Part shown: positions 5,420-27,829 of the stretch, piece after piece
Layout: every line of letters begins with the position of its first letter
Position numbering within the stretch: the first letter of the stretch is position 1
Origin: a virus
Reading direction: 5' to 3' (one strand)
DNA length: 32,359 bases
Virus record (IMG/VR): IMGVR_UViG_3300022928_001002
Span: 1 to 32,359 of that record
Notes under the pieces: model-generated
Databases searched by the model: none
Told to the model about the DNA's origin: nothing
The model's input: only the letters and a program-made list of their open reading frames with translations
Position numbers and translations under genes: made by a program

Positions 5420-6844
5420 TTATTCGATATTATTAATAAACTGTTTAAGCAGAGTGCTATTAGTCTCTGCTTTTACTTTGGGCACGTTTGCACCTTCAGC
5501 TGGATCTTCACGTTCTCCTGCATTGCTAGTACTGTTACGCTTGAGTGCATTTACAATTGCATTACCAGTGCTGGTGTTGCTGTAGTTGTTGTCACCATCA
5601 TCGTCTTCATCGCAATCAATAATACGCAGTGTCTCTACATCAAAGCCTAGATCAATCTTTTGACCTACGCCCGAACTGTTACGTGTCTTCATCAACTGCA
5701 ACTGATAGCGTCCACGTTCACGCATTGCACGACTTGTAAAGATACCAAACACGTTGTCTGCTGTTTGAATCTTTGATAGTCCGCCCGAGATGTGCGAGTG
5801 ATCAAACTCGATCTCTTCAACTGCTCCCCTGTTCAACTGTGCCGCAGTAACAAACACTGTGTTGAGTTCCATTGCTAGGTTACGCAGTTCTTCTGATACA
5901 TACTTGTCTTTGATAAACAAGTTCTCTGCACTTACCTTTGTGCTTGCTGGCATCAACAAGTCCAAGTAGTCGATTAACAGTACATCAACCTTCTTGCCTG
6001 TTTTGATTTCATACTCTTTGATATATGAACGCACATCGTTTGCAGTCTTGCCTGAGGGCATATACTTGATCTGCATAGCACCACTCTTCTTACCAATCAT
6101 CTTGACTTTGAGTTCAACATCATCAATCTGCTTGAACACATCACGTGTGCTGATGCCTGTGACCATACTGTCAATACGCATACTCACTAGACTCTCTGCA
6201 AGTTCTAGTGTTAGGTACATCACGTTCATGCCCTTCTCAGCCATGTTAACGCCAATGTTAGCAAGGAACAAACTCTTACCTGCACCTGACCCGCCTGCAA
6301 AGATATTAAGCTCGCCTCTGTTAAAGCCACCAAACAGTTTCTTGTCCATAGCAGCCCAGCCAGTGCTCACCTGTCCGTTGGTGCTCTTGATTGCTTCTAG
6401 GCGTGTGCGTGGGTCACTCCAATAGTCTGTACCCAAGTCTTTCTGTAGTCCAATCTGTACAGCCTTCTTGACTAGATCTTCACACGCACCATACTCGCCT
6501 TTCTCAAGCAAGTCTGCGCTTTTAAGAATAGCTGCCTCAAGTGCTTTGTGTTTTGAGAATGTTTCAAACTCAGCCAGCAACCAGTCATAGTGATTCTCTG
6601 CAAGCTGTCCTGGATTCTTCAAGTCGCTTTGTGCTGCTGCGTTCACCATGTCAAATGTAGGCAGTGCGTTAAACTCACTTACGTATTCTGTAAGGAACTT
6701 AGCCGCAGGCGCTAGTCTGCGATCAAATGCATCTGGGTTGAATACTGCTTGGCAGCGCACGAAGCTCTCTGCATCAGTAAGCATCATCTCAAGATATACT
6801 CGCTGTATATCGTATCCGTAATCTGTGTTTTGTCTTGTGCTCAT
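5420..6844 (-). CDS. 41: T4 gp41-type replicative DNA helicase (DnaB family)
   Basis: This 474-residue protein is the hexameric 5'-3' helicase that unwinds the replication fork and partners with the gp61 primase. It shows a helical N-terminal domain (1-140), then a RecA-like domain with Walker A GGSGAGKS at 184-191, a Walker B segment VLLIDYLDLL near 280-290, and SGGLSKIQTADNVFG-like DnaB motifs in the C-terminal third. Length matches T4 gp41 (475 aa). A consensus promoter ends six bases before the ATG, so the mRNA should start at the start codon. The C-terminal tail (after about 430) is polar and low in complexity, as expected for a partner-binding tail. Confidence 0.92.
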   Translation of the reverse strand: MSTRQNTDYGYDIQRVYLEMMLTDAESFVRCQAVFNPDAFDRRLAPAAKFLTEYVSEFNALPTFDMVNAAAQSDLKNPGQLAENHYDWLLAEFETFSKHKALEAAILKSADLLEKGEYGACEDLVKKAVQIGLQKDLGTDYWSDPRTRLEAIKSTNGQVSTGWAAMDKKLFGGFNRGELNIFAGGSGAGKSLFLANIGVNMAEKGMNVMYLTLELAESLVSMRIDSMVTGISTRDVFKQIDDVELKVKMIGKKSGAMQIKYMPSGKTANDVRSYIKEYEIKTGKKVDVLLIDYLDLLMPASTKVSAENLFIKDKYVSEELRNLAMELNTVFVTAAQLNRGAVEEIEFDHSHISGGLSKIQTADNVFGIFTSRAMRERGRYQLQLMKTRNSSGVGQKIDLGFDVETLRIIDCDEDDDGDNNYSNTSTGNAIVNALKRNSTSNAGEREDPAEGANVPKVKAETNSTLLKQFINNIE

Positions 6845-7620: not shown

Positions 7621-8610
7621 TTAATACCATACACCATCAAGTTTAATTTTTTTCTTTGTATGGGCTAATACCGCACCTATACAACTGCCAGGGTCACCTG
7701 GGTTCTGCGGAACATGAATGTTATCCCACATTGGGCTAATACGATCAACTGCTTGTCTATTTAGTGCTCCACCACCTGCAAGTGCTAGGTTAGTTGTTGC
7801 TGTTTGTACCTTAGCCCAGCAGCTCAAATAGGTTACACAGTATTCAAATATCCATTGTGTAGCGGCAGCAATGTCGTACATGTCTTGCTCACTAGTTAGT
7901 TCAGGGTGCCACCACATACATCCCCTATGTAGATTTTCTTTTGCTTTAATGCTAGGTGTGAACCCCATGCCAGTAGTGCCAATTAGCTCATCAAATATAA
8001 GTTTATAAAATCTATGAGGGTCACCTTTAGCTGCATACTGGGCTACTAGATATTCATCACGCTGCGGTACTAGACCTATACGCTGTGTCATGGCACTATA
8101 GAAAAGACCTAGACTATGCGGATACCCTTGGCTATAAATCTTCTTGAGCTTATTGTTCTTTCCATGCCATATGGTCAGGGTCTCGAACTCGCCTATGCTG
8201 TCTAAGCATATTACAGCGCAATCATCATGAGGCTGGGTGTAATAAGCATAAGCAGCATGACTTAGGTGATGCTGGGTATAGCTGATCGGTATGCCACGTA
8301 GTCCACGAATGTCTACATACTTGCGTATGTTGTTCTCACTGTACAACCAACCCTGTCCAGCACGCCACTGACGTAGTGTCTTAAGGAACGGACGTTCGTA
8401 CCAGATTAGTTTATCAGGACGGCCGTAGTCTAGTGCATGCTTTATGATCTCACTGTTTAGGTGTGGGTCATTAGGTACGCCACTAAAGTCTTTAGCAAGC
8501 CCTGCCCATAATAGACGAGATGTAGGGTTAGGACATAGTCCTTTGCGAGATGTTTCAAATATTGCAATACTTGCGTCGTGGCTATTGCCTACCAATCCCC
8601 AAGTAATCAT
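7621..8610 (-). CDS. Short O-carbamoyltransferase (NodU/CmcH/TobZ type, N-terminal domain)
   Basis: This family transfers a carbamoyl group to sugar or nucleoside hydroxyls through a Kae1-like domain. Visible motifs are the metal-binding HHLSHAA (114-120), LDSIGEFET (136-144), PHSLGLFYSAMT, LALAGGGALNRQAV and PGDPGSCIGAVL near the end. At 329 residues it contains only the Kae1-like domain; typical members of about 550-600 residues carry an extra C-terminal domain absent here. Carbamoyltransferases occur in many T4-like marine phages; the substrate (surface sugar or nucleotide) is unknown. It starts in an ATGA overlap with a 40-residue gene and sits between primase and helicase genes. Confidence 0.85.
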   Translation of the reverse strand: MITWGLVGNSHDASIAIFETSRKGLCPNPTSRLLWAGLAKDFSGVPNDPHLNSEIIKHALDYGRPDKLIWYERPFLKTLRQWRAGQGWLYSENNIRKYVDIRGLRGIPISYTQHHLSHAAYAYYTQPHDDCAVICLDSIGEFETLTIWHGKNNKLKKIYSQGYPHSLGLFYSAMTQRIGLVPQRDEYLVAQYAAKGDPHRFYKLIFDELIGTTGMGFTPSIKAKENLHRGCMWWHPELTSEQDMYDIAAATQWIFEYCVTYLSCWAKVQTATTNLALAGGGALNRQAVDRISPMWDNIHVPQNPGDPGSCIGAVLAHTKKKIKLDGVWY

Positions 8611-8729
8611 TTGTATATGAACGGATCACGTTTTTTTAATTCTTCTATGCGCTTCTTAAACTCACGCTCTTCTTTCCAGTAATTGTAGGGCCATGTTATC
8701 CACGACCAAATCTTTTTTAACCAAACCAT
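8607..8729 (-). CDS. 40-residue Trp-rich conserved phage peptide
   Basis: A short frame in the gap between primase and carbamoyltransferase encodes 40 residues: an aromatic, amphipathic start (MVWLKKIWSWITWPYNYW) followed by a highly charged helix (KEEREFKKRIEELKKRD) and PFIYK. It starts 13 bases inside the end of the primase gene and ends in an ATGA overlap with the carbamoyltransferase start, filling the gap exactly, which is strong evidence that it is real. The N-terminal part looks membrane-surface binding. It resembles very short conserved proteins of marine T4-like phages; function unknown. Confidence 0.75.
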   Translation of the reverse strand: MVWLKKIWSWITWPYNYWKEEREFKKRIEELKKRDPFIYK

Positions 8730-9697
8730 TTCTTTGCTCTCAGTCTAATTTTAAGTGGGCTAGTTTCTGCGGCACTAGCAATACTATACAATGTATATAG
8801 TCTACCGTACTTAGCAACAGCATCACCAATGTCGTTGATGTCAGCATCCCAGTCCGGCAAACTAACGCCCCAGCCGCGTTCGATAGCTGCTTCAATTAGT
8901 TTGCTGCCTGCTTTGTCTCTGTCAGGTACAACATAAATGTCTTTGCCTAGTCTATTAATTAGCAGTGCTTGCTGGTCTCCAATTTCACTTCCGGTTAGCG
9001 CACATCCGTCTACATGAATAGCATCTACAGGACCTTCGCACACAATTGCAAACACTTTGTTAGGACCTTGCTCGTCTAGTCCGTATACAAATCCTGGTTG
9101 CGTTTCTGTAAGGTACTTAGGCTGCTTGTCTGCTGTGATAGTTCGAGCAGTCCAGCCTACTACTCGCCCTTCATAGTAGAACGGAATAATAAGTCTGTCA
9201 CGATATCCTAAGCTCGAGCTCCAGTAGTAGTCTGTGTCATCTAAGTTTAGATTACGTGCAGCCATGTACTCAAGGATAGCCATACTAAACTTATTAAACT
9301 CTGTAATGTCTGCTACCTTAACAGCATCAGGCGGCAATGGTACAGTTTCAAATGTAGGAATATCAATCTTACGCTGCTGTACTTCTACACCTTCATTGAT
9401 GCGCATTACATCTAGCGTGAGCTTGTTAATAGCATCATCAGGCGCACCTAACCAAATTAATAGTCTACGCAAGCCTTTGCTTACATTACGTCCTGGTTGC
9501 CAACTTGCTTTGTATCCACAGTTAAAGCAGTGATAGCTAACTGTATCGCCTTCTGAGATAAGTCCACCGCGCCCTCTAGTGTCAGCAGTGTTACCATTGT
9601 GATGACAGCAGGGCGCATTGAAGCTAGTCCACCCACTCGGAGTAGTCTTTCGCTTACTAGGCAAATATGCTGTTATGATGTCGGACACAATACTCAT
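8717..9697 (-). CDS. 61: T4 gp61-type DNA primase
   Basis: The 326-residue enzyme makes RNA primers for lagging-strand synthesis with the gp41 helicase. An N-terminal zinc-binding domain is visible: C30/C31, H32/H33 and YHCFNCGY with C57 and C60. The TOPRIM catalytic domain has IVCEGPVDAIH (E221, D225) and VVPDRDKAG (D259, D261). Length is close to T4 gp61 (342 aa). A perfect TTGACA/TATAAT promoter lies directly in front, with the -10 box six bases before the ATG, so the transcript should be leaderless. The end overlaps the 40-residue gene by 13 bases. Confidence 0.92.
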   Translation of the reverse strand: MSIVSDIITAYLPSKRKTTPSGWTSFNAPCCHHNGNTADTRGRGGLISEGDTVSYHCFNCGYKASWQPGRNVSKGLRRLLIWLGAPDDAINKLTLDVMRINEGVEVQQRKIDIPTFETVPLPPDAVKVADITEFNKFSMAILEYMAARNLNLDDTDYYWSSSLGYRDRLIIPFYYEGRVVGWTARTITADKQPKYLTETQPGFVYGLDEQGPNKVFAIVCEGPVDAIHVDGCALTGSEIGDQQALLINRLGKDIYVVPDRDKAGSKLIEAAIERGWGVSLPDWDADINDIGDAVAKYGRLYTLYSIASAAETSPLKIRLRAKKWFG

Positions 9698-10526: not shown

Positions 10527-10533
10527 GAGAAAT

Positions 10534-10902
10534 ATGTTATTAAAAGATATTGAACAGAACTTTCCATTTATTAGCGTAGTCACTTATGGTGGCAATGAAT
10601 ACGTCGGCGTCATTGCCAATCAAGATGCATATATAACCAGCATGTATATTTTCACTTCTCTAAAGACTGATGAAGAAAAAGAAGTGTTTTTAGAAATGGG
10701 CAATGTCTGGTGGTGGGAATCAAATAGGATGTTGCCCATTAATATATTCCTAATAAATGAAATGCAACAATTTAGTTACGCAATGATGACCATGAATAGC
10801 AAGGATGTTAAGGTAACAATAGGTCCTTGTGTTAATTTAAATGATTTAAACTTTAAACGTATCAAACGTAAAAGCGTACAACTTGTACGTAAAGCTAAGT
10901 AG
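10534..10902 (+). CDS. Conserved phage protein (122 aa), unknown function
   Basis: The ATG at 10534 gives MLLKDIEQNFPFISVVTYGG; the longer frame from 10444 lies antisense to the virion gene and is unlikely. The 122-residue product has a compact alpha/beta start (GGNEYVGVIANQDAYITSMY), a WWWESNR motif near residue 62, and a basic C-terminal tail rich in Lys/Arg. I recall similar small proteins with the WWWE motif in T4-like cyanophages, none with a known function. It is divergent from the virion gene (19-base gap) and converges with the DnaE-like gene (8-base overlap). Confidence 0.7.
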   Translation: MLLKDIEQNFPFISVVTYGGNEYVGVIANQDAYITSMYIFTSLKTDEEKEVFLEMGNVWWWESNRMLPINIFLINEMQQFSYAMMTMNSKDVKVTIGPCVNLNDLNFKRIKRKSVQLVRKAK

Positions 10903-11452
10903 AAAACTGCTCACACAATAAATTCATGTGTACAACACATGCCGTAGCGTAACTAACAGCATGCGCTTTCTTAAAGTAGTAACCTTCATCAGGTTTAATC
11001 CAAACTTCCTTCATTATTGTCTCCCAGCTTTCGTTCGCTAGGTGTCTCTTGGCTGGTCGAATTATCGCTAGTGTCGCTGCCAATTTCAATACCGAGTTGG
11101 GCTTCAAGACTTTTAAGAGTTGACTGTGCCCGTTTAGATGAAAGACTTTTTCGCTGAAGTCCTCGTGCTCCAGAAGTTGCCATAGGGGTTCCCTTTCCAT
11201 TAGTTCTGTTAAATGTGATTCGTCCCTAACATCTTTGTATATGCTTACGTTAAGGAAGTCTAGTTTAAAGTAGCCACGTTCTTCTGCGGTCTTGTAGTCA
11301 ACTGTGGCTAAGTTGTCTACAGGGTTGTGTGGAATCTCAGTTGCATAGACTCCAGTGTTGTGCTTCTTGTCTGTATCAAGTTTAGCAACACGATGCTTGA
11401 GCTGTGCAAGCACAATAGTTCTGTCAGCAAAGTCTATATCAATATCAGGCAC
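10895..11452 (-). CDS. Miniature DnaE-like protein (bacterial Pol III alpha palm fragment)
   Basis: The 185-residue protein matches widely separated blocks of the replicative DNA polymerase III alpha subunit, in order. PDIDIDF (2-8) is the first catalytic aspartate motif. HNTGVYATEIP (31-41) matches the KHAGGVVIAP block and YFKLDFLN (61-68) the third-aspartate motif KFDFLGL. VFHLNGHSQLLKVLKPNS (103-120) matches the GVFQLES...LLRRLKPDS block and AHAVSYA (163-169) the KSHAAAYA block. The PHP domain, most of the fingers, and the C-terminal beta- and tau-binding parts are absent. It starts with GTG, directly after an in-frame TAA, and overlaps the preceding 58-residue gene by 8 bases. Polymerase activity is doubtful; a regulator or decoy of host Pol III is possible. 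Confidence 0.75.
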   Translation of the reverse strand: MPDIDIDFADRTIVLAQLKHRVAKLDTDKKHNTGVYATEIPHNPVDNLATVDYKTAEERGYFKLDFLNVSIYKDVRDESHLTELMEREPLWQLLEHEDFSEKVFHLNGHSQLLKVLKPNSVLKLAATLAIIRPAKRHLANESWETIMKEVWIKPDEGYYFKKAHAVSYATACVVHMNLLCEQFST

Positions 11453-19333: not shown

Positions 19334-19362
19334 AGTATAACGTATTACAGCTGATCTGTCAA
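19334..19362 (-). promoter_or_regulatory. Sigma-70-type promoter giving a leaderless mRNA for the uvsW operon
   Basis: Leftward TTGACA (19362-19357), 17-base spacer, TATACT (19339-19334), then ACTTGT and the ATG at 19327. The -10-to-ATG gap of six bases equals that in front of gp41 and gp61. The -35 box is within the last codons of the upstream gene. Confidence 0.85.
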
Positions 19363-20196
19363 GCGTTTAAGTGGAATACCTTGTGAAATTTCTTCTATAG
19401 TCCATTCAGTGTGTGCATAGTCGTTTAGCCATTGTTGTCTATCTGGCATTAACGGATTTTCTATATCGTGTAGAAAGTCAATGTCATTACCTACATCATA
19501 CGCTAACGAGCTGGTGCCCACAAACGCTGGAACTCCGTTGAGTATGCTGTGTATACCCGGATTGCTACTGTAGCTTACAGTAGCGTGTACGTTGTTAAAA
19601 GACATATCAAAGTCATCATATGTACCATTTAACTTTACAGGATTTTGTCTATATACATTTTTAAATTCTCGTTCAATGTGCATCAAAGGACATCGAGGAT
19701 GTGGTCGAAATATTATAGCCCTATCTGAGAATCTTTGTATGCTTTCGATCGTCCGCATAACCCATTCCGACATACGTGGCATACCTTGCCACTGCAAGCT
19801 CTTGTCGTGTTGTCCGCATATAAGGATGGAGGAGCCTTCCGTTTGCCATGACTGGAGCGATAATCCCAAAGCATTAGCCCTACTGCTGTCGTTATTATTA
19901 GGGCCAAAATAAGCATCACGATTAATACCATTGAGTCCTACCTTCCATGTTGTGCCGCGGTTGATTCCGCCAACTTCTAATACAATTACTGGTTTCTTTT
20001 TGTTCTGTGCGTTCTTCCAAACAAGTTGGTTTTGAGCCATTCTTCCGTTAAACAGTACGCTCCAAATAACATCAACGTCGGAGTCATTGCTATTATCGTC
20101 AGTGCTAAAACCAAGGGCGCGACAACCCTCTCGAAAAGCATCAAAGACAGGTTTGCTATTAAGTGCGCCATATTGTGTCCATAAACTAAATTTCAT
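19345..20196 (-). CDS. KpsC/KpsS-like GT-B glycosyltransferase (copy 1)
   Basis: The 283-residue protein resembles the capsule-synthesis glycosyltransferases KpsC/KpsS, which add Kdo. Key features are SSILICGQHDKSLQW (a GT-B second-domain start), the IFRPHPRCPL motif (about 162-171), a later THE HATVSYSSNPGIHSILNGVP segment (donor-binding loop, S-x-x-x-GxPA), and the ending HTEWTIEEISQGIP. The same order occurs in three other proteins of this window (21601, 22517 C-terminal half, 25589). It lies leftward and its end contains the -35 box of the next promoter. Substrate unknown; Kdo is inferred from kdsA/kdsB in the same genome. Confidence 0.75.
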   Translation of the reverse strand: MKFSLWTQYGALNSKPVFDAFREGCRALGFSTDDNSNDSDVDVIWSVLFNGRMAQNQLVWKNAQNKKKPVIVLEVGGINRGTTWKVGLNGINRDAYFGPNNNDSSRANALGLSLQSWQTEGSSILICGQHDKSLQWQGMPRMSEWVMRTIESIQRFSDRAIIFRPHPRCPLMHIEREFKNVYRQNPVKLNGTYDDFDMSFNNVHATVSYSSNPGIHSILNGVPAFVGTSSLAYDVGNDIDFLHDIENPLMPDRQQWLNDYAHTEWTIEEISQGIPLKRLTDQL

Positions 20197-20235
20197 CTGT
20201 TAAATACCATATAGCATATTTACACGAGGAACACA

Positions 20236-21078
20236 ATGTCAGCAATAACTGTGGTAACAACATTTCACCCAGCAGGGTTAACAACATATGGACAAAGATT
20301 TTTAGATAGTTTTGCAGCAAAGGTTGACAAACGTATTAAATTATTAGTGTATGCAGAAGATTGTAAACCAATTAATCCCGATCCAAGTCGTATTGAAATA
20401 CTTGATGCCCGAACAGCACTTCCAAAATTAAATGCTTTTAAAGAACGCTGGAAAGATGTACCCAAGGCAAACGGTATTCCGCCGGATGATATTAAAGCAA
20501 GGCGTCCTAGAGATTGGAACAAAGAATTTAAATGGAACGCTGTACGCTTTGCTAATAAGACATATGCAGTGTATGACGCTTGTGAACGTAGCAAAGGATG
20601 GTGTGTATGGATGGATGCAGATAGCTTTATCCACAGTCCTTGGAGTTACGAAGAGTTTAAAGATCTACTTCCTAGCAATGCTTATATTACATATGTTGGT
20701 AGAGGTAAAGGATCTCAGACTTGGCCGGAGTGTGGGTTCTACGGTATGAATCTAAATCATCCTGTGTGTCATAGTTTCTTAGAAGACTTTGAGCGTATGT
20801 ACGAAGATGCTGAGAACGGTATCTTTACCTTAGAAGAATGGCACGACAGTTATGTGTTCGGTGAGCTACTAAAGAAGTATAGTGAATTTCCATCGCATGA
20901 TTACAGTGCAGAAATGTATCTTAAAGAAGCAAAGACTGGTGGAGGCGGACATCCGTTAATTAATGGTCCACTAGGCAAGTGGATGGACCATATGAAGGGT
21001 GTTCGTAAAGAAGAAGGTCGTAGTCGGTCAAAAGACATCATGGTAAATAGAACTGAAGACTACTGGAGTAATAAGTGA
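20236..21078 (+). CDS. GT-A-type glycosyltransferase (280 aa)
   Basis: The 280-residue protein has a Rossmann-like start (ITVVTTFHPAGLTTYGQRFL) and a DxD motif in GWCVWMDADSFI (about 121-132), which binds the metal and nucleotide-sugar donor in GT-A enzymes. Later blocks include ECGFYGMNLNHPVCHSFL and EWHDSYVFGELL. GAGGAA precedes the ATG. It forms, with the methyltransferase, a rightward pair inside a leftward glycan island, divergent from copy 1 of the GT-B proteins (39-base gap, no convincing promoter seen). The transferred sugar and acceptor are unknown. Confidence 0.75.
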   Translation: MSAITVVTTFHPAGLTTYGQRFLDSFAAKVDKRIKLLVYAEDCKPINPDPSRIEILDARTALPKLNAFKERWKDVPKANGIPPDDIKARRPRDWNKEFKWNAVRFANKTYAVYDACERSKGWCVWMDADSFIHSPWSYEEFKDLLPSNAYITYVGRGKGSQTWPECGFYGMNLNHPVCHSFLEDFERMYEDAENGIFTLEEWHDSYVFGELLKKYSEFPSHDYSAEMYLKEAKTGGGGHPLINGPLGKWMDHMKGVRKEEGRSRSKDIMVNRTEDYWSNK

Positions 21079-21611
21079 AGCCAATTTTATTTAAAGTAAT
21101 GGAAAGCATTATAGGCAATGCTAAGTGTGAATTCATTGGAGAGATCGGAACGCACAAGGGAGGTACTGCAAAACAATTTATTAATTTCTTTGCTCCTAGA
21201 GTTGAAAAACTAACGTACCATGGATATGATGTATTTGACTTTGGAATAGATAATGTTGAATTCCACAAAGGCGAACGCAATGGTAAAGCACCTGTAAAAT
21301 TAACTACTGCAAATATTACTTTTGATAAAGTTAAACGAAAACATCAAAATATAGATATTAAATTGTTTAAAGGATTTACAACTGATACCTTAGAAACTAC
21401 TATATTTGATTTTGTATATATTGACGGTGGTCATAGTTACGAAACTGTAAAGCACGATTATAGTAAAGTTAAAGACAGTAAAATTATTGTGTTTGACGAT
21501 TGCAAGATTCCCGGAGTTCGGCAAGTAATTAATGAAATTAAAGAATCTGGAATAGACGTCGAAATGGTTACTACTCCGTCAAAGCACATTTGGGCAGTTG
21601 TTAGGAATTAA
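21075..21611 (+). CDS. Class I SAM-dependent methyltransferase (Methyltransf_24-like)
   Basis: The 178-residue protein starts with GTG in a GTGA overlap with the glycosyltransferase. GEIGTHKGGTAK (23-34) is the SAM-binding glycine motif and FDFVYIDGGHSYETVKHDY (about 111-129) is the signature of the Methyltransf_24/CmcI-like group, which includes sugar O-methyltransferases. Translational coupling to a glycosyltransferase suggests methylation of the sugar that enzyme adds. It converges with the next leftward gene, overlapping it by 11 bases. Confidence 0.8.
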   Translation: MKPILFKVMESIIGNAKCEFIGEIGTHKGGTAKQFINFFAPRVEKLTYHGYDVFDFGIDNVEFHKGERNGKAPVKLTTANITFDKVKRKHQNIDIKLFKGFTTDTLETTIFDFVYIDGGHSYETVKHDYSKVKDSKIIVFDDCKIPGVRQVINEIKESGIDVEMVTTPSKHIWAVVRN

Positions 21612-22530
21612 CGTACTGCCTCATATGACGCCAGGCACTGCCGTCTTCTAGTTCACTGAACTTCCAATGAAACATACTAATACGTTCTAGCCAATGCTGT
21701 CTGTCAAACTGTTGTGGTGATTCTAACTTCTCAAATCCAAGATGTGCTACTTCGGCACATTGACTTTTAGTAGCGTCTGTAATAAATGCGCTGTATCCCA
21801 TAATAATAGGTCCAACAATGCTACTGCTATTATGATTAACAACAGCATGACAATTTTGTAAATCTTCTACTATTGTTCGGTTAATAGGGCTTACGGTAAC
21901 ATGTTTAATTTGATTTAATAATCGCTGTATTTGAGGAGATCTTCTATTAGTTTGATTATCACTAGGATGCAATCTTACAATAATAGGTCTGTCAGAATGC
22001 ACTCGTATTTTCTTACAAGTATCTAAAAGCCATGTATCTAAATTTACCTTACCCATGCTCCATCCGCCGTTGCGTTGAGCACAAATAAGAATATGCCTAC
22101 CGCTAACTTTTGTATCTTCTATTTTGATGTTTAAGTCTTTAGATATTTGTTGCCAACGACTAGAGTCTATACTATCATCAAAATAGTTTCCTGTATTAGG
22201 AAACACTCCATCAAAACTGTATCTTAAATAATGGTGGTTGTTTTGATTATTAGCGTAAAGAAATAAATTAGAATCAGCAGTACATACGTGTGTATTGTCA
22301 GTGCGATCAATTACACGCTGTCTTAATTGTAAGTGAGGTAAATTTTTTCCGTGCTCGTGCTGCCAACCTTGTATCATGCCTACATCACAATGCTGTAAAT
22401 TAAATCCCCGATGTAATATTCCTGTATCGCCTGCTGCATTTACACCTTGTGTAAATTTTTTTAAGATATTAAATTTTTCTTCGCTTTTGTTTTTAGCAGG
22501 AATTACATTGTAATAACTAACGACCTTCAT
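21601..22530 (-). CDS. KpsC/KpsS-like GT-B glycosyltransferase (copy 2)
   Basis: The 309-residue protein has the same plan as the other copies: RHILICAQRNGGWSMGK (about 145-161) opens the second domain, IIVRLHPSDNQT (183-194) replaces the RPHP motif with RLHP, CHAVVNHNSSSIVGPIIMGY carries the Ser-rich donor loop, and the C-terminal FHWKFSELEDGSAWRHMRQY is the shared ending. Its start overlaps the bifunctional glycosyltransferase by 14 bases, so the two are expressed together, probably from the late promoter at 24999. Kdo transfer is inferred. Confidence 0.75.
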   Translation of the reverse strand: MKVVSYYNVIPAKNKSEEKFNILKKFTQGVNAAGDTGILHRGFNLQHCDVGMIQGWQHEHGKNLPHLQLRQRVIDRTDNTHVCTADSNLFLYANNQNNHHYLRYSFDGVFPNTGNYFDDSIDSSRWQQISKDLNIKIEDTKVSGRHILICAQRNGGWSMGKVNLDTWLLDTCKKIRVHSDRPIIVRLHPSDNQTNRRSPQIQRLLNQIKHVTVSPINRTIVEDLQNCHAVVNHNSSSIVGPIIMGYSAFITDATKSQCAEVAHLGFEKLESPQQFDRQHWLERISMFHWKFSELEDGSAWRHMRQYVNS

Positions 22531-24217
22531 TGACTATGCTCCAAGCATACCCGTTCATCATCTCAGCTCGACTAAATTGACAATAGCTAAGATGTGCCAT
22601 TAATGCAGTCATTTCATCTTTATCTGGAATATGCAATTTTTCAACATCAGCTAGACTAGTATTGCATACCATAGACGCACAATTAGGTCCTAGTGTAATA
22701 GCAGGCTTTCCTACCATTAGTGCTTCTAGTGCTGCAATACTATTGTATGTAATTAAGCAATGAACATTTTGATCAAGAGCTGCTTCTAAAGAATTATTTG
22801 CAATTCGATCTGTACGCACCGGTTTAAGTCTAACTTCAATTGGTCGATCAGTATATTGTTTTAACTGTTCAGTTACAGATTGAATCCATTCTTCTGGACT
22901 AGGTTGATTAAATAATTTCATTACTTTGTCACTTGGCGGAACTAATAAAATTTTCTTGCCATCTCTAAACTTCTTATATTTCCAACTAAGCAATCTATCG
23001 TGCGGGCGTTCAATAATAGGTCCTAGATTTTGTAAGTTATTCTTTGTAACTCTGTGCCAACCTTTTGATTTGCTTTTACTGTTTCCAAAGTATCCAGTAT
23101 CAATGGCATAAAAATCTCTACCAGTATTCCAGCAATGGACTACTGCTTCTCTGCTGCTTTTACCAACACCTCTAATAATCAATGGTGACGATGTATTTTG
23201 TTCAGCCTCCCATGTACTTAATTTTCCGTTAACACCAATGCTTAACGCTTCTAAATATTCATCGTATACATAAGATTTATTATTGTAATTTAAATCATCG
23301 TTAAATATTGCAGCAACTTTATGTGTCTTACTTTCTTGAAATTTGTTTTGGATAATTGCCATTGCCTGTTCCTCTGTGTATCCGTAATATTGACCAGTGG
23401 GATCAATTGTTGAATATGCTAATGCTTTGATTGGTTCTTTTAAATGATCAGGCAACGTTAAATCCATAACTGTTTTAGTACCTGTACGTTCATTTACTAA
23501 TTTTACTGCTGTATTATGTTCTTCTTTTAATAGGTATTGTCTTTCGGCACGATAATATTCACTTGCATATTCACAATCATAATATTCTTTAAACCAAGGA
23601 CCACCTTCTGTGTAGTGTAAGAACTTTGGCTTGCCGTCTTTAGGTTCTTTATACCAGCCTACTAACCAATTCCATTCGTGGCTTAAACTACCTATTTCGC
23701 TATCTTTTAACCAACTAAATCTATGCAAATACTTGCCATCTATCTTTGGATCATTAACAAATTCTTTAGTAAGTACACTATTGCTAGGATGTGAACAATT
23801 GATTAACATCATACTTGACCAATTTTTACGTGGATATACTGTTTGCTTTTGCCCATCCATTTTAACTCCTTCTTTAGGAGTGTAGTCGTGATGCGCACAC
23901 ATTACAGCAAACTTATCATTGCGTTGGGCAAATAATTTTTTAACGTCTTCTAATGCCACAAAGTCACAATCAATAAACAATGCCCATCCATTAAATCCCA
24001 TCATCTCAGGTACAAGGAATCGTGTAAATGTAAATTCCGTGCTAGCTAGTTTATCTTCGTCTCTCCAATATATACGATTTCTTTCACGTAACTCTTTTTG
24101 TTTTAACGGAATAACTTCAATAGGAACACTTGCAGTCTCAAGTAAACTGTACTTGCAGGTTTGGTATGCTATATCTTCTCTGCTGTCCCAGCCTACGAAA
24201 ATCTTTAAAGGTTCCAT
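22517..24217 (-). CDS. Bifunctional glycosyltransferase: GT-A domain fused to a KpsC/KpsS-like GT-B domain
   Basis: Residues 1 to about 260 form a GT-A domain of GT8-like type: IFVGWDSREDIAYQTCKYSL (6-25) and a DxD in ALFIDCDFVAL (98-108), then EWNWLVGWY and FLHYTEGGPWF, which fits the HxxGxxKPW pattern in reduced form. Residues from about 330 form the GT-B-like part: PLIIRGVGKSS, KILLVPPSDKVMKLF, VRLKPVRTDRIAN, CLITYNSIAALEALMVGKPA and the shared ending SRAEMMNGYAWSIVN. Fusions of two glycosyltransferases often build a repeat or a linker in one protein. The gene is coupled (TAATG) to the nucleotidyltransferase-cupin gene upstream. Confidence 0.8.
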   Translation of the reverse strand: MEPLKIFVGWDSREDIAYQTCKYSLLETASVPIEVIPLKQKELRERNRIYWRDEDKLASTEFTFTRFLVPEMMGFNGWALFIDCDFVALEDVKKLFAQRNDKFAVMCAHHDYTPKEGVKMDGQKQTVYPRKNWSSMMLINCSHPSNSVLTKEFVNDPKIDGKYLHRFSWLKDSEIGSLSHEWNWLVGWYKEPKDGKPKFLHYTEGGPWFKEYYDCEYASEYYRAERQYLLKEEHNTAVKLVNERTGTKTVMDLTLPDHLKEPIKALAYSTIDPTGQYYGYTEEQAMAIIQNKFQESKTHKVAAIFNDDLNYNNKSYVYDEYLEALSIGVNGKLSTWEAEQNTSSPLIIRGVGKSSREAVVHCWNTGRDFYAIDTGYFGNSKSKSKGWHRVTKNNLQNLGPIIERPHDRLLSWKYKKFRDGKKILLVPPSDKVMKLFNQPSPEEWIQSVTEQLKQYTDRPIEVRLKPVRTDRIANNSLEAALDQNVHCLITYNSIAALEALMVGKPAITLGPNCASMVCNTSLADVEKLHIPDKDEMTALMAHLSYCQFSRAEMMNGYAWSIVNEGR

Positions 24218-24993
24218 TAATCTCTTCTCTCTATATCATCTTCTGTGAGTGTTACACCCATCCAAACTTCTACAACTCTAGCAGTTACATCGCCTATGTT
24301 AGTTGCCTTGTGCCATGTTCTATGAGGAATATCAATACTGCTTCCGGGATAGTATGTTTTAGATTTAGTATCTCCATTTTGGTACTCTAAATCCATACGT
24401 ATAATACCTTCAACAACATGCCAGTGCTCTGAGCGTTTAGAATGGCGTTGGTCGCTTAGTGCTTTGCCTGCGTCAAATTCAAGTTGTTTAACTTGCCAAC
24501 CATCGCCTTTGTCTAGCACAGTGTATCTGCCCCATGCACGTTCTGTAGTAGGTTGGCCCCATTCTTTAAGAATCCAACTACTTGAATTTTTCTTATCCTG
24601 GCCGCCTACTCCGTAAGCAAAACTAACTTGGCCTTCGTCATAGTAATGGCGCTCTTCAGGAACATTACCTTGCTTGCGATCGCCACCGTTAGCAAATATA
24701 ACTCGTAGATCAGGATCGTAGTCTCGGTCTCTTAACACTTGTTCAATTGCATTTGATGCTGTTCCGTCACTATCGTCAAATGCAATTACTTCGTCTACCA
24801 TTGACAAATTGCCAACAATGGCAGCACGTTCTTGCCAAGGCATAAAAGGACGACCCTTCTTTTGAGTAAGCCAATTATCGGAATTTAATCCAACTACTAA
24901 ACGATCGCCTAGTGCTTTTGCTGCTTTGAAGTAGGCAAGGTGCCCGCTATGTAAAGGGTCAAACCCTCCTGTGACTAATACTACATTGTTCAT
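24217..24993 (-). CDS. Nucleotidyltransferase fused to a phosphomannose-isomerase-type cupin
   Basis: The N-terminal half (1 to about 130) is a cytidylyltransferase-like domain: GGFDPLHSGHLAYFKAAKAL (9-28, HSGH motif) and GLNSDNWLTQKKGRPFMPW, as in RfaE/TagD-type sugar nucleotidyltransferases. From about 150 the protein matches the type II phosphomannose isomerase cupin found at the end of ManC: AWGRYTVLDKG, WQVKQLEFDAGKALSDQRHS, EHWHVVEG and SIDIPHRTWHKATN. ManC itself has a different (GT-A-fold) nucleotidyltransferase, so this combination is unusual. It would make an activated sugar for the glycosyltransferases that follow. A late promoter lies directly in front. Confidence 0.82.
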   Translation of the reverse strand: MNNVVLVTGGFDPLHSGHLAYFKAAKALGDRLVVGLNSDNWLTQKKGRPFMPWQERAAIVGNLSMVDEVIAFDDSDGTASNAIEQVLRDRDYDPDLRVIFANGGDRKQGNVPEERHYYDEGQVSFAYGVGGQDKKNSSSWILKEWGQPTTERAWGRYTVLDKGDGWQVKQLEFDAGKALSDQRHSKRSEHWHVVEGIIRMDLEYQNGDTKSKTYYPGSSIDIPHRTWHKATNIGDVTARVVEVWMGVTLTEDDIERRD

Positions 24994-24998
24994 GTAGA

Positions 24999-25006
24999 TA
25001 TTTATA
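24999..25006 (-). promoter_or_regulatory. T4-type late promoter box, 5 bases before a start codon
   Basis: Leftward TATAAATA, then TCTAC and ATG (24993). The predicted transcription start is the A of the ATG. It puts the nucleotidyltransferase-cupin gene, the bifunctional glycosyltransferase and GT-B copy 2 under late control. The sequence from octamer to start codon differs in one base from that at 1684-1699 on the other strand. Confidence 0.7.
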
Positions 25007-25055
25007 TGCGTAGTTTATATAAATTATTTTTTATGAAAATTATTTTCTACAAGTT

Positions 25056-25592
25056 TCATTTTTTAAAAACCAATCCGTATTTTTTAAAAAATTTACGTTT
25101 CATTGAACTCTTTTTTCTAAGTTCTTTTGTTAGTCTTTGATTAAAAGTAAATCCGTATTTTTCAAATATTGCTATCCAGTATTCTTCCGTATTGCAGTTT
25201 ACATGATGATGCCCTGGAGTATTAGGAGGAGCAAATGTCATGCAAACAGTTTTTCCTGAAGAAAAAGTTTGCATAAAATTATCTAGATATTTTTCTTCCA
25301 CATGCTCAACAAACTCACAACTCCAAACTAAATCGAAACTTTTATCAAATGTCAAAGGGCCGTTTGTATAATCGTGTATGCAAACTTTATTTGGATTTTT
25401 TCTTTCAACTTTAAAGTCTCCATCTACTCCTTGCACATCATATCCCAACGATAACGCTTCGTCAAGCATGCCTCCTGGACCGCAACCAATATCTAAATAA
25501 GATGTAGCACCAGCTTTTTTAAAATACTCTAAAATGTTTTTATCGATGTGAGTTATGCCGCAATGGCCTCCTAAATGTGTTGGTAAATTCAT
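25056..25592 (-). CDS. Class I SAM-dependent methyltransferase (178 aa)
   Basis: ATG 25592 (MNLPTHLGGHCGITHIDKNI) is preferred over 25616 because AAGGAAG precedes it and it forms an ATGA overlap with the upstream gene. The 178-residue protein shows SYLDIGCGPGGMLDEAL (SAM-binding motif I, about 33-49), VQGVDGDF (motif II) and DLVWSCEFVEHVEEKYLDN, typical of Methyltransf_11/23-type enzymes. A basic tail ends the protein. It is the last gene of the leftward transcript from the gp32/uvsX side before the late promoter at 24999. Substrate unknown; its place among glycosyltransferases suggests sugar methylation. Confidence 0.82.
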   Translation of the reverse strand: MNLPTHLGGHCGITHIDKNILEYFKKAGATSYLDIGCGPGGMLDEALSLGYDVQGVDGDFKVERKNPNKVCIHDYTNGPLTFDKSFDLVWSCEFVEHVEEKYLDNFMQTFSSGKTVCMTFAPPNTPGHHHVNCNTEEYWIAIFEKYGFTFNQRLTKELRKKSSMKRKFFKKYGLVFKK

Positions 25593-26497
25593 AATACTTC
25601 CTTTAAATGACTCCACATCAAGCCGTTTGTAATTTCTTCATTATTCCAAATTGTGTATGCAATTTTATTACACCAAGTACTTATGTCAATATTATAATCC
25701 AGGGATTCAATTTTCGATAAATCCTTGTGTCCTATATCATATGCACTTGAGGTAGAACTTAATGTAAAAATAGGGATTCCTTTTTCAACTGCTTCAACTG
25801 CACTATTACTGCTATAGGTAACAACACAATATGCATTATTTAGATCTTCTTCTAATCCTTTGCCGCCATTTAATGTAGTCGTAGAATTATAATTTTTACT
25901 AACACTTATATTTTTATATGCATTGTTTAAATTCTCTTCTAACGCATAAAAAGTTTTTGCACCAACCGGATGAGGTCTAACTACAATAGGTCTGTCAGTA
26001 TACCGTCTAATAATTTTAATTTGCTCAATTATATAACTATCGAACGAATTGTATCCTGCATTATACATTTCTATTAATGCACTGTCTTTCTCTAATTGTC
26101 CCATTATAAGAATACTGTCTCCAGGACTATTCCAGTCAGCAAAAGATATGCCTGTATCTTTTTGTATTTTGTTCCAGCGATAATCATCTACATTGTTATT
26201 GTTAAAATTACCAATGCCGTTTTTATAACTGGTCCAGCCCCAACGTTTATAATTTGGCAGTTGTCTTACCGCACCCTCTTCGCATACTAAAAAAGGTTTG
26301 TTAGAATCCAGTATAAATTTATAGATAGGGTTAAGTTTATTATTAAGATAAGGGTTATAAATGTTAAACTGCACATATACATCTATATTAGCAGAAGTAT
26401 ATCTATTAGAGGTCATTAATGTATCCGGGCTAAATCCTTTTGCCCAACCTTCTAAAATTTTTCCTTTGTTTAATTTTTTAGTATTAAAAATTATCAT
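25589..26497 (-). CDS. KpsC/KpsS-like GT-B glycosyltransferase (copy 3)
   Basis: The 302-residue protein has GDSILIMGQLEKDSALIEMY (about 125-144), the PIVVRPHPVGAKTF motif (170-183), CVVTYSSNSAVEAVEKGIPI with the Ser-rich donor loop, a SSTSSAYDIG segment like the AYDVG of copy 1, and the shared ending YTIWNNEEITNGLMWSHL. It is the copy most similar to copy 1 by eye. Its base composition is the most AT-rich in the island. The start overlaps the preceding glycosyltransferase by 14 bases and the end overlaps the methyltransferase in ATGA form. Confidence 0.75.
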   Translation of the reverse strand: MIIFNTKKLNKGKILEGWAKGFSPDTLMTSNRYTSANIDVYVQFNIYNPYLNNKLNPIYKFILDSNKPFLVCEEGAVRQLPNYKRWGWTSYKNGIGNFNNNNVDDYRWNKIQKDTGISFADWNSPGDSILIMGQLEKDSALIEMYNAGYNSFDSYIIEQIKIIRRYTDRPIVVRPHPVGAKTFYALEENLNNAYKNISVSKNYNSTTTLNGGKGLEEDLNNAYCVVTYSSNSAVEAVEKGIPIFTLSSTSSAYDIGHKDLSKIESLDYNIDISTWCNKIAYTIWNNEEITNGLMWSHLKEVL

Positions 26498-27143
26498 TTA
26501 ACAAAGTTTTAATTAATTTATCACCGTGATTAGAAATCCAATCTTTGTATAACTTTCGATCAGTTTCCATATTAGAATTAACTTGGTTATAAGTTTCATC
26601 TAAAGATGTTTTTCCTGTTGACCAGTGTACGTGTTCAACTACAATATCTTCACGTAATACAATACAATTTAATCCTTCGCCGATGTATTGCCAGCTGTCA
26701 TCTAAGAAAAAATGTTTAGTAGCAGGATGCCCAAACCAACCAACTGCTCTTACTAAATCTCCGCCACAAACAGGATGTGTGGGCAAATGTTTCTTTTTCT
26801 GTTTACCTAAGTCATCAGGATGGGCAATTTTACGTAAGCCTGCTTCTTCAACAAGCTGTTTGTCCCAGTAGTTAGTACGAGGAACAATATCATCTGCTCC
26901 TAATCCGTACCAATCTTCGTTAGGATACTTATGAAACATTTCTTCCATTGCTGCTTTAAGTCCTTCCCTAGGACCAACAACTACTTCAAATGTATTAGGA
27001 TAATCTAACGCAAGATATTCTTCTAACTTAGGATCATCGTCGTCTAATCTAACGTAGACTTTGCTACTGCCTTTAGTTGCAATATATGCTTCTATAAATC
27101 TTTTTAAGTTGTGAGGACGACCTCTAGTTGGTAAACTCCACAT
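26484..27143 (-). CDS. GT-A/GT2-like glycosyltransferase (219 aa)
   Basis: The 219-residue protein begins MWSLPTRGRPHNLKRFIEAY, a common start of phage-encoded GT2-like enzymes, and has VYVRLDDDDPKLEEYL (29-44) and WYGLGADDIVPRTNYWD (about 78-94), where the second Asp pair fits the DxD motif. It then has HPVCGGDLVRAVGWFG and a C-terminal FLDDSWQYIGEGLN. No membrane segment is seen, so it is probably cytoplasmic. It is coupled to the GT25 gene (TAATG) and overlaps copy 3 by 14 bases. Confidence 0.75.
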   Translation of the reverse strand: MWSLPTRGRPHNLKRFIEAYIATKGSSKVYVRLDDDDPKLEEYLALDYPNTFEVVVGPREGLKAAMEEMFHKYPNEDWYGLGADDIVPRTNYWDKQLVEEAGLRKIAHPDDLGKQKKKHLPTHPVCGGDLVRAVGWFGHPATKHFFLDDSWQYIGEGLNCIVLREDIVVEHVHWSTGKTSLDETYNQVNSNMETDRKLYKDWISNHGDKLIKTLLNDNF

Positions 27144-27829
27144 TATAATAACCCCGGGTTTGCTGTTAAACTTGCAGTACTGATATTGTTACCTTCTGCA
27201 TAAAATGGATGCAATCTTGCTATAGTCGGCACTGTAGTCTTAAGATTAACTATCCTTGAATTAATTTGTTGATCTGCAGGACGATGACCGTTTACATTAA
27301 TAAAATTAATAAGTTTTTTAGCAGCGTGAGGCTTTATTATATAAGAGTATGCACCTTTAAAATAATCTCTTAATCCGTATTTTACTACCTTTATAGGATT
27401 ATTAGTATAATCTTCTACAGTTACTTTTAGATCTTTTTCTAAATCTAAATCACTATTATAAGTTCTGCTATACGGATCCAGTCTATCTAATTTTAGTACA
27501 TCATCAAACTGATCTAATAATAGCGGATCAATCGGTCGTATTAAGTAACCGTCATGTTCTAGAATAACAATAGGTTCATTTAACTCTATACACTTTTGCC
27601 AAAGATAGTAATGGCTAAAAAAACATCCAACTACACCTAGTCTATCTTTTTTAAATTTTCCGTGTTTTTTTATATTTGTGTTCTTGTAATGAAACTCTGC
27701 ATCATTGCCGTTTATTGCTTTAAAATATTCAGGGCGAAGTCCATATTTTACAGCTTGAAGCAAACATTCTTCTGCCATTTGACAAGAATGTTTGTTTTCT
27801 TCTAAGCGAATAATAAAACTCTTGATCAC
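27143..27829 (-). CDS. GT25-type LPS glycosyltransferase
   Basis: The 228-residue protein fits the GT25 family of lipo-oligosaccharide galactosyl/glucosyl transferases: SFIIRLEENKHSCQMAEECL at the N-terminus, GVVGCFFSHYYLWQKCIELN (65-84, the G-x-GC-x-x-SH motif) and PIVILEHDGYLIRPI, where the usual EDD is replaced by EHDG. It then has GAYSYIIKPHAAKKLI (about 160-175). The start is GTG in a GTGA overlap with uvsY, so translation is coupled to a recombination gene. The changed acidic motif could alter metal binding. Confidence 0.8.
   Translation of the reverse strand: MIKSFIIRLEENKHSCQMAEECLLQAVKYGLRPEYFKAINGNDAEFHYKNTNIKKHGKFKKDRLGVVGCFFSHYYLWQKCIELNEPIVILEHDGYLIRPIDPLLLDQFDDVLKLDRLDPYSRTYNSDLDLEKDLKVTVEDYTNNPIKVVKYGLRDYFKGAYSYIIKPHAAKKLINFINVNGHRPADQQINSRIVNLKTTVPTIARLHPFYAEGNNISTASLTANPGLL

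Follow-up and report, generated by a model that had tools for sequence, protein, structure and literature searches.

We analyzed a 32,359-nucleotide stretch of DNA from an uncultured IMG/VR phage (record IMGVR_UViG_3300022928_001002), hereafter the window, which is a genome fragment. The 185-aa ORF described here lies in it together with the following features:

10895..11452, minus strand: C-terminal half (C-half) of a split minimal DNA polymerase III alpha, 185 aa, GTG start at 11452, phrog_11778
11429..11449, minus strand: PDIDIDF motif, residues 2-8 of the C-half; D3/D5 correspond to the catalytic D401/D403 of E. coli DnaE
11249..11266, minus strand: KLDFLN, residues 63-68; D65 corresponds to E. 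coli D555 (third catalytic Asp) and K63 to K553
10946..10972, minus strand: KKAHAVSYA motif, residues 161-169, corresponding to the E. coli K758-S-H-S fingers block
10528..10902, plus strand: convergent small gene, phrog_11637, ~123 aa, no known function; its 3' end overlaps the 3' end of the C-half
8717..9697, minus strand: DnaG-type primase, conserved downstream neighbor
5420..6844, minus strand: DnaB/gp41-type replicative helicase, conserved downstream neighbor

An in-frame TAA lies two codons 5' of the GTG of the window C-half, which excludes a longer start and leaves this GTG as the sole start upstream of the catalytic aspartates. The start codon is at the same place in marine relatives, being ATG in many of them and TTG in some. 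The DnaE motif order is kept throughout the protein: D3-D5-D7 (PDIDIDF), K30-H31..G34, K63-D65 (KLDFLN), LKPNS, R132-P133 and K161-K162-A-H164. This set of motifs far exceeds chance. The initial annotation had described five DnaE blocks in the right order with intact catalytic aspartates, and both descriptions hold: all motifs were located in the ORF, and D3, D5 and D65 are present and invariant in 105-106 of the 106 distinct homologues.

Family C polymerases are known mostly as ~1100-aa bacterial replicases, and the canonical DnaE layout (PHP, palm, thumb, fingers and beta-binding/OB/CTD regions in one chain of ~1160 aa) is not matched by the 185-aa C-half. Mapped onto E. coli DnaE, D3 corresponds to D401, D5 to D403, K30-H31 to K510-H511, K63 to K553, D65 to D555, R132 to R639 and K162 to K758. 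The spacing between D401 and K510 is 109 residues in E. coli DnaE versus 27 in the C-half, and that between R639 and K758 is 119 versus 30; we take the first deletion to be the thumb and the second to be the outer fingers. The annotation had listed the PHP, fingers and clamp-binding parts as missing. The PHP and clamp/tau-binding regions are indeed absent, whereas the fingers are partly kept and it is the thumb that corresponds to the large deletion after D403.

Using PHROG profiles, the window protein matched phrog_11778 (“DNA polymerase”) with an E-value of 8.7e-62 (residues 3-182 on 8-194 of 197) and phrog_405, the general/large phage Pol III family, with an E-value of 1.5e-8. Single-sequence Pfam and NCBIfam scans of the window protein did not reach DnaE at significance and a phmmer search of the PDB with the same query gave no significant match, so that profiles were required; a pattern scan using the SCTP-2 C-half as a query recovered no relatives. 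Profile-profile comparison of the C-half against an alignment of DnaE proteins yielded an E-value of 3e-8, and four colinear blocks were aligned with M. tuberculosis DnaE1, weakly (E-value 0.033). We then used the AlphaFold model of the C-half (pLDDT 87.7) as a Foldseek query: ranks 1-12 were all Pol III alpha, with noise or weak matches beyond those. The E-values (best 3.9e-3) are modest, which is no surprise for a query of half a domain, and the query TM-scores are 0.35-0.48. The relationship to DnaE that had been read from the motifs is therefore borne out at the levels of profile (3e-8) and structure, where only Pol III alpha was retrieved above noise, and the ORF encodes a true DnaE-type (family-C) palm/fingers fragment that is strongly conserved.

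Apart from losses through truncation, the 106 distinct sequences show no variation at the DIDID aspartates, at D65 (the second-strand Asp) or at K63, H31, G34, R132-P133, K162, H165 and Y169 (model column numbers). Pairwise dN was 0.07-0.13 versus a dS of 0.4-2.3, for a dN/dS of roughly 0.05-0.2 after leaving out one pair that was out of frame (L028). The C-half gene is under purifying selection, and the low dN/dS and invariant active site agree with the earlier remark that the ORF is not a product of random decay. We found the C-half in 90 phage records, those listed being jumbo phages of ~285-490 kb bar a few partial records, and relatives are encoded on upwards of 560 IMG/VR stretches, so its known range grows from fewer than 100 phage records to environmental contigs numbering several hundred or more. 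It is nearly absent from bacterial and archaeal genomes, with 2 matches on MAG contigs (3.7 and 29.7 kb) and 2 weak bacterial matches. Homologues were seen on MAG contigs labelled as archaea (L323, PUKM01000272.1, and L324, NZDU01000037.1; Natrialbaceae and Pacearchaeota); the MAG contigs bearing the C-half may be mis-binned phage DNA.

The surroundings of the gene are also conserved. The phrog_11637 gene was found at the C-half by tblastn in 63 of 82 loci, a small convergent gene lies beside the C-half in all six isolates inspected, and the primase and helicase are located downstream in each of the 37 marine and isolate loci with sufficient flank. Elsewhere in the window, a DAHP-synthetase-family protein (PF00793, 14428-15204) is encoded beside a cytidylyltransferase (PF02348, 13754-14431), both on the minus strand, and by sequence the pair look like phage-borne KdsA/KdsB for the synthesis of Kdo, an LPS sugar. 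A carbamoyltransferase (PF02543) is encoded at 7621-8610 on the minus strand. Positions 19345-27829 hold a block apparently made of sugar/polysaccharide-modifying genes; a cytidylyltransferase-like domain fused with mannose-6-phosphate isomerase domains is found at 24217-24993 and a methyltransferase at 25056-25616.

We searched six complete isolate genomes (PA5oct, Phosso, Atu_ph07, SCTP-2, GAP32 and 121Q) with PF07733 and found in every one a single positive gene of ~170-180 aa (N-half), located about 30 to more than 200 kb from the C-half. The N-half carries a GxGRGSS/C motif and ends in EFLK, EFLKW, EFLN or similar. Its profile aligns to residues 322-392 of E. coli DnaE; as the N-half ends at ~392/393 and the C-half begins at ~400, the palm is cut at a single point and the pair spans about 320-780 of DnaE. 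The initial annotation had treated the ORF as a single miniature protein; it did describe a real DnaE fragment, but missed that this protein makes up just one half of the enzyme, the other, GRGS-bearing half being encoded by a separate, distant gene in relatives. The 121Q N-half was matched by phrog_11127 at 3.5e-87, and an AlphaFold model of an N-half (pLDDT 90.7) retrieved Pol III/PolC or DNA polymerase entries at ranks 1-14. Genes for a GroES-like protein and for an ATPase of the clamp-loader type are often located near the N-half. According to a 2022 survey (PMC9123017), about half of one cluster of marine jumbo phages carries a PF07733 domain.

Among the phage records listed as carrying the C-half, at least 68 of 75 also carry the N-half and, conversely, the C-half was present in seven of eight IMG/VR contigs longer than 200 kb picked for the N-half. 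A family B polymerase (PolB, PF00136) was found in these eight contigs and in a ninth picked for the C-half (9/9 contigs >200 kb), and PF00136, here a gp43-like family B polymerase, was found in all six isolate genomes. A 237-kb relative of the window with a C-half of ~70% identity (G003) has the C-half, the N-half and PolB. A family C protein had been called unexpected in T4-like phages, a judgment that falls because this jumbo-phage group carries both PolB and the split family C enzyme. In the 32-kb window itself, the N-half was not found by its own profile nor by PF07733 and inspection of the ORF list revealed no family B polymerase, and in a probably incomplete 262-kb relative (G002) neither N-half nor PolB was found; since these contigs are fragments, genes missing from them are weak evidence. 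In a 359-kb IMG/VR contig (G022, of L249) we observed the N-half and PolB with no C-half match at an E-value of 1e-3, where the C-half may have diverged, may truly have been lost or may lie beyond the end of an incomplete contig.

Short DnaE forms that are not split were also identified. In a marine subclade, a single-chain, PHP-less DnaE of ~545 aa is encoded downstream of the C-half (L090:10755-12386 and L146-L209, about 8001-9630), with matches to PF07733 at 6.7e-44 and to the fingers family at 1.2e-16. Reading L090 gene by gene, it comes straight after DnaB, and the C-half lies 4-7 kb upstream of it in each of the 23 loci whose upstream sequence extends to 8 kb. The contigs bearing this gene are 88 kb at most, and none of these single-chain proteins is encoded in the 32-kb window. 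Its presence alongside the C-half looks like a new finding. A 484-kb uncultured phage (LR756508.1) encodes an unsplit, trimmed DnaE of 575 aa (about 47385-49052; L327:12001-13668) together with PolB, and separate N or C halves were not found in it, which supports the view that both pieces function together as a single enzyme.

We consider it likely that T4-like jumbo phages have a trimmed family C polymerase made of two polypeptides, in which the ORF product, as the C-terminal half, forms one active site with the N-half, and that this enzyme is accessory to PolB. The evidence for the identity of the ORF is strong; we infer that the halves assemble, that they act as a polymerase and what their precise role is. 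In this enzyme, the inner fingers and the metal-binding residues of the palm (D3/D5 and D65) would come from the C-half, and the N-terminal palm, which bears the GxGRGSS nucleotide-binding motif, from the N-half encoded tens to hundreds of kb away. The combined halves would restore a single nucleotidyltransferase active site devoid of PHP, thumb and clamp-/tau-binding tail. Working beside the family B replicase and near the primase-helicase, the complex could act as an accessory polymerase in gap filling, repair or the synthesis of one fork strand. More tentatively, the marine subclade might run the split Pol III, the single-chain mini-Pol III and PolB together, or the single chain might take over the role of the N-half, with the pair working as a two-subunit family C polymerase that lacks a thumb and is smaller than any other known member of the family; we regard this combined proposal as possible but doubtful.

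The loss of the thumb would weaken the grip on the primer-template, which counts against a polymerase. Together with the loss of most DNA-binding accessories, the full family B replicase already owned by the relatives and the pol beta-type nucleotidyltransferase fold shared by family C enzymes (PMC7824862), it would speak for halves that form a nucleotidyltransferase other than a template-directed polymerase, used for instance in primer/end modification or terminal transfer. We think this unlikely, though worth keeping in view, as the inner-fingers residues and the KxHxxxY block are kept as in true Pol III and the gene adjoins those of the primase and DnaB. Among the functions that had been offered initially, a component of the phage replisome or a minimal nucleotidyltransferase fits these data, whereas a decoy fits poorly. 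Phages do target host replication and the protein is a fragment of DnaE, so that it might mimic part of the host enzyme and titrate host Pol III partners, but a decoy is improbable, since the protein retains its active site and lacks the regions that would bind such partners, namely the PHP (epsilon-binding) and the C-terminal beta/tau-binding regions. Its catalytic residues are, moreover, invariant across phages of widely differing hosts, the gene sits within the phage primase-helicase block and the N-half co-occurs with it.

That nothing but a fragment of DnaE is left could also suggest a functionless, degenerate relic of a former DnaE gene. We rejected this reading on the basis of dN/dS, which is well below 1, and find it hardly credible given an active site that is invariant and a synteny and co-occurrence conserved in phages of hosts ranging from Agrobacterium to Escherichia. 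Split inteins are known from DnaE, and the two halves might be joined after translation as in the cyanobacterial enzyme. The N-half, however, ends immediately after EFLK/EFLKW and the C-half begins at DIDIDF or at most ~20 aa from it; the gene ends leave no room for an intein in either half, and we rejected this extremely improbable option as well.

If the two-polypeptide polymerase is correct, a two-gene family C enzyme of ~360 aa lacking thumb and PHP would represent the minimal catalytic core of the family. Such a core bears on the origin of bacterial Pol III, as argued in PMC7824862. In that study, Iyer et al. (2021; sections 3.4.1 and 3.5, Fig. 3b) described a split minimal DNA Pol III alpha in group 2.2 jumbo phages and proposed that it serves in the synthesis of one strand or in repair; the same split-enzyme conclusion was reached there independently. 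In the literature searched, whose coverage excluded most subscription papers and preprints, we found no experimental or biochemical work on the split enzyme.

Compared with bacterial DnaE/Pol III alpha (E. coli, Thermus, M. tuberculosis), the C-half has the palm aspartates, the K553 and H511 equivalents and the RP and KxHx blocks in the same order, but lacks the PHP, thumb, outer fingers, OB and beta-/tau-binding parts, and the palm is divided over two genes. Single-chain phage DnaE-like polymerases (phrog_405, the ~545-aa marine form and the 575-aa form of LR756508.1) have the same catalytic blocks, and the short forms also lack the PHP; theirs is a continuous chain with an N-terminal palm, a longer thumb/fingers region and a C-terminal extension. 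The closest families are phrog_11778 (C-half) and phrog_11127 (N-half), the former matched over nearly its full length with no difference found in the C-half. The split minimal Pol III alpha of Iyer et al. (PMC7824862) shares with our protein the C-terminal Mg2+/template-binding half and, as seen in relatives, the distant N-terminal partner and the co-occurrence of PolB, and differs in that the window copy comes from an uncultured IMG/VR phage, with the partner unseen in the 32-kb fragment. The window C-half adds a marine representative to the enzyme type already described there.
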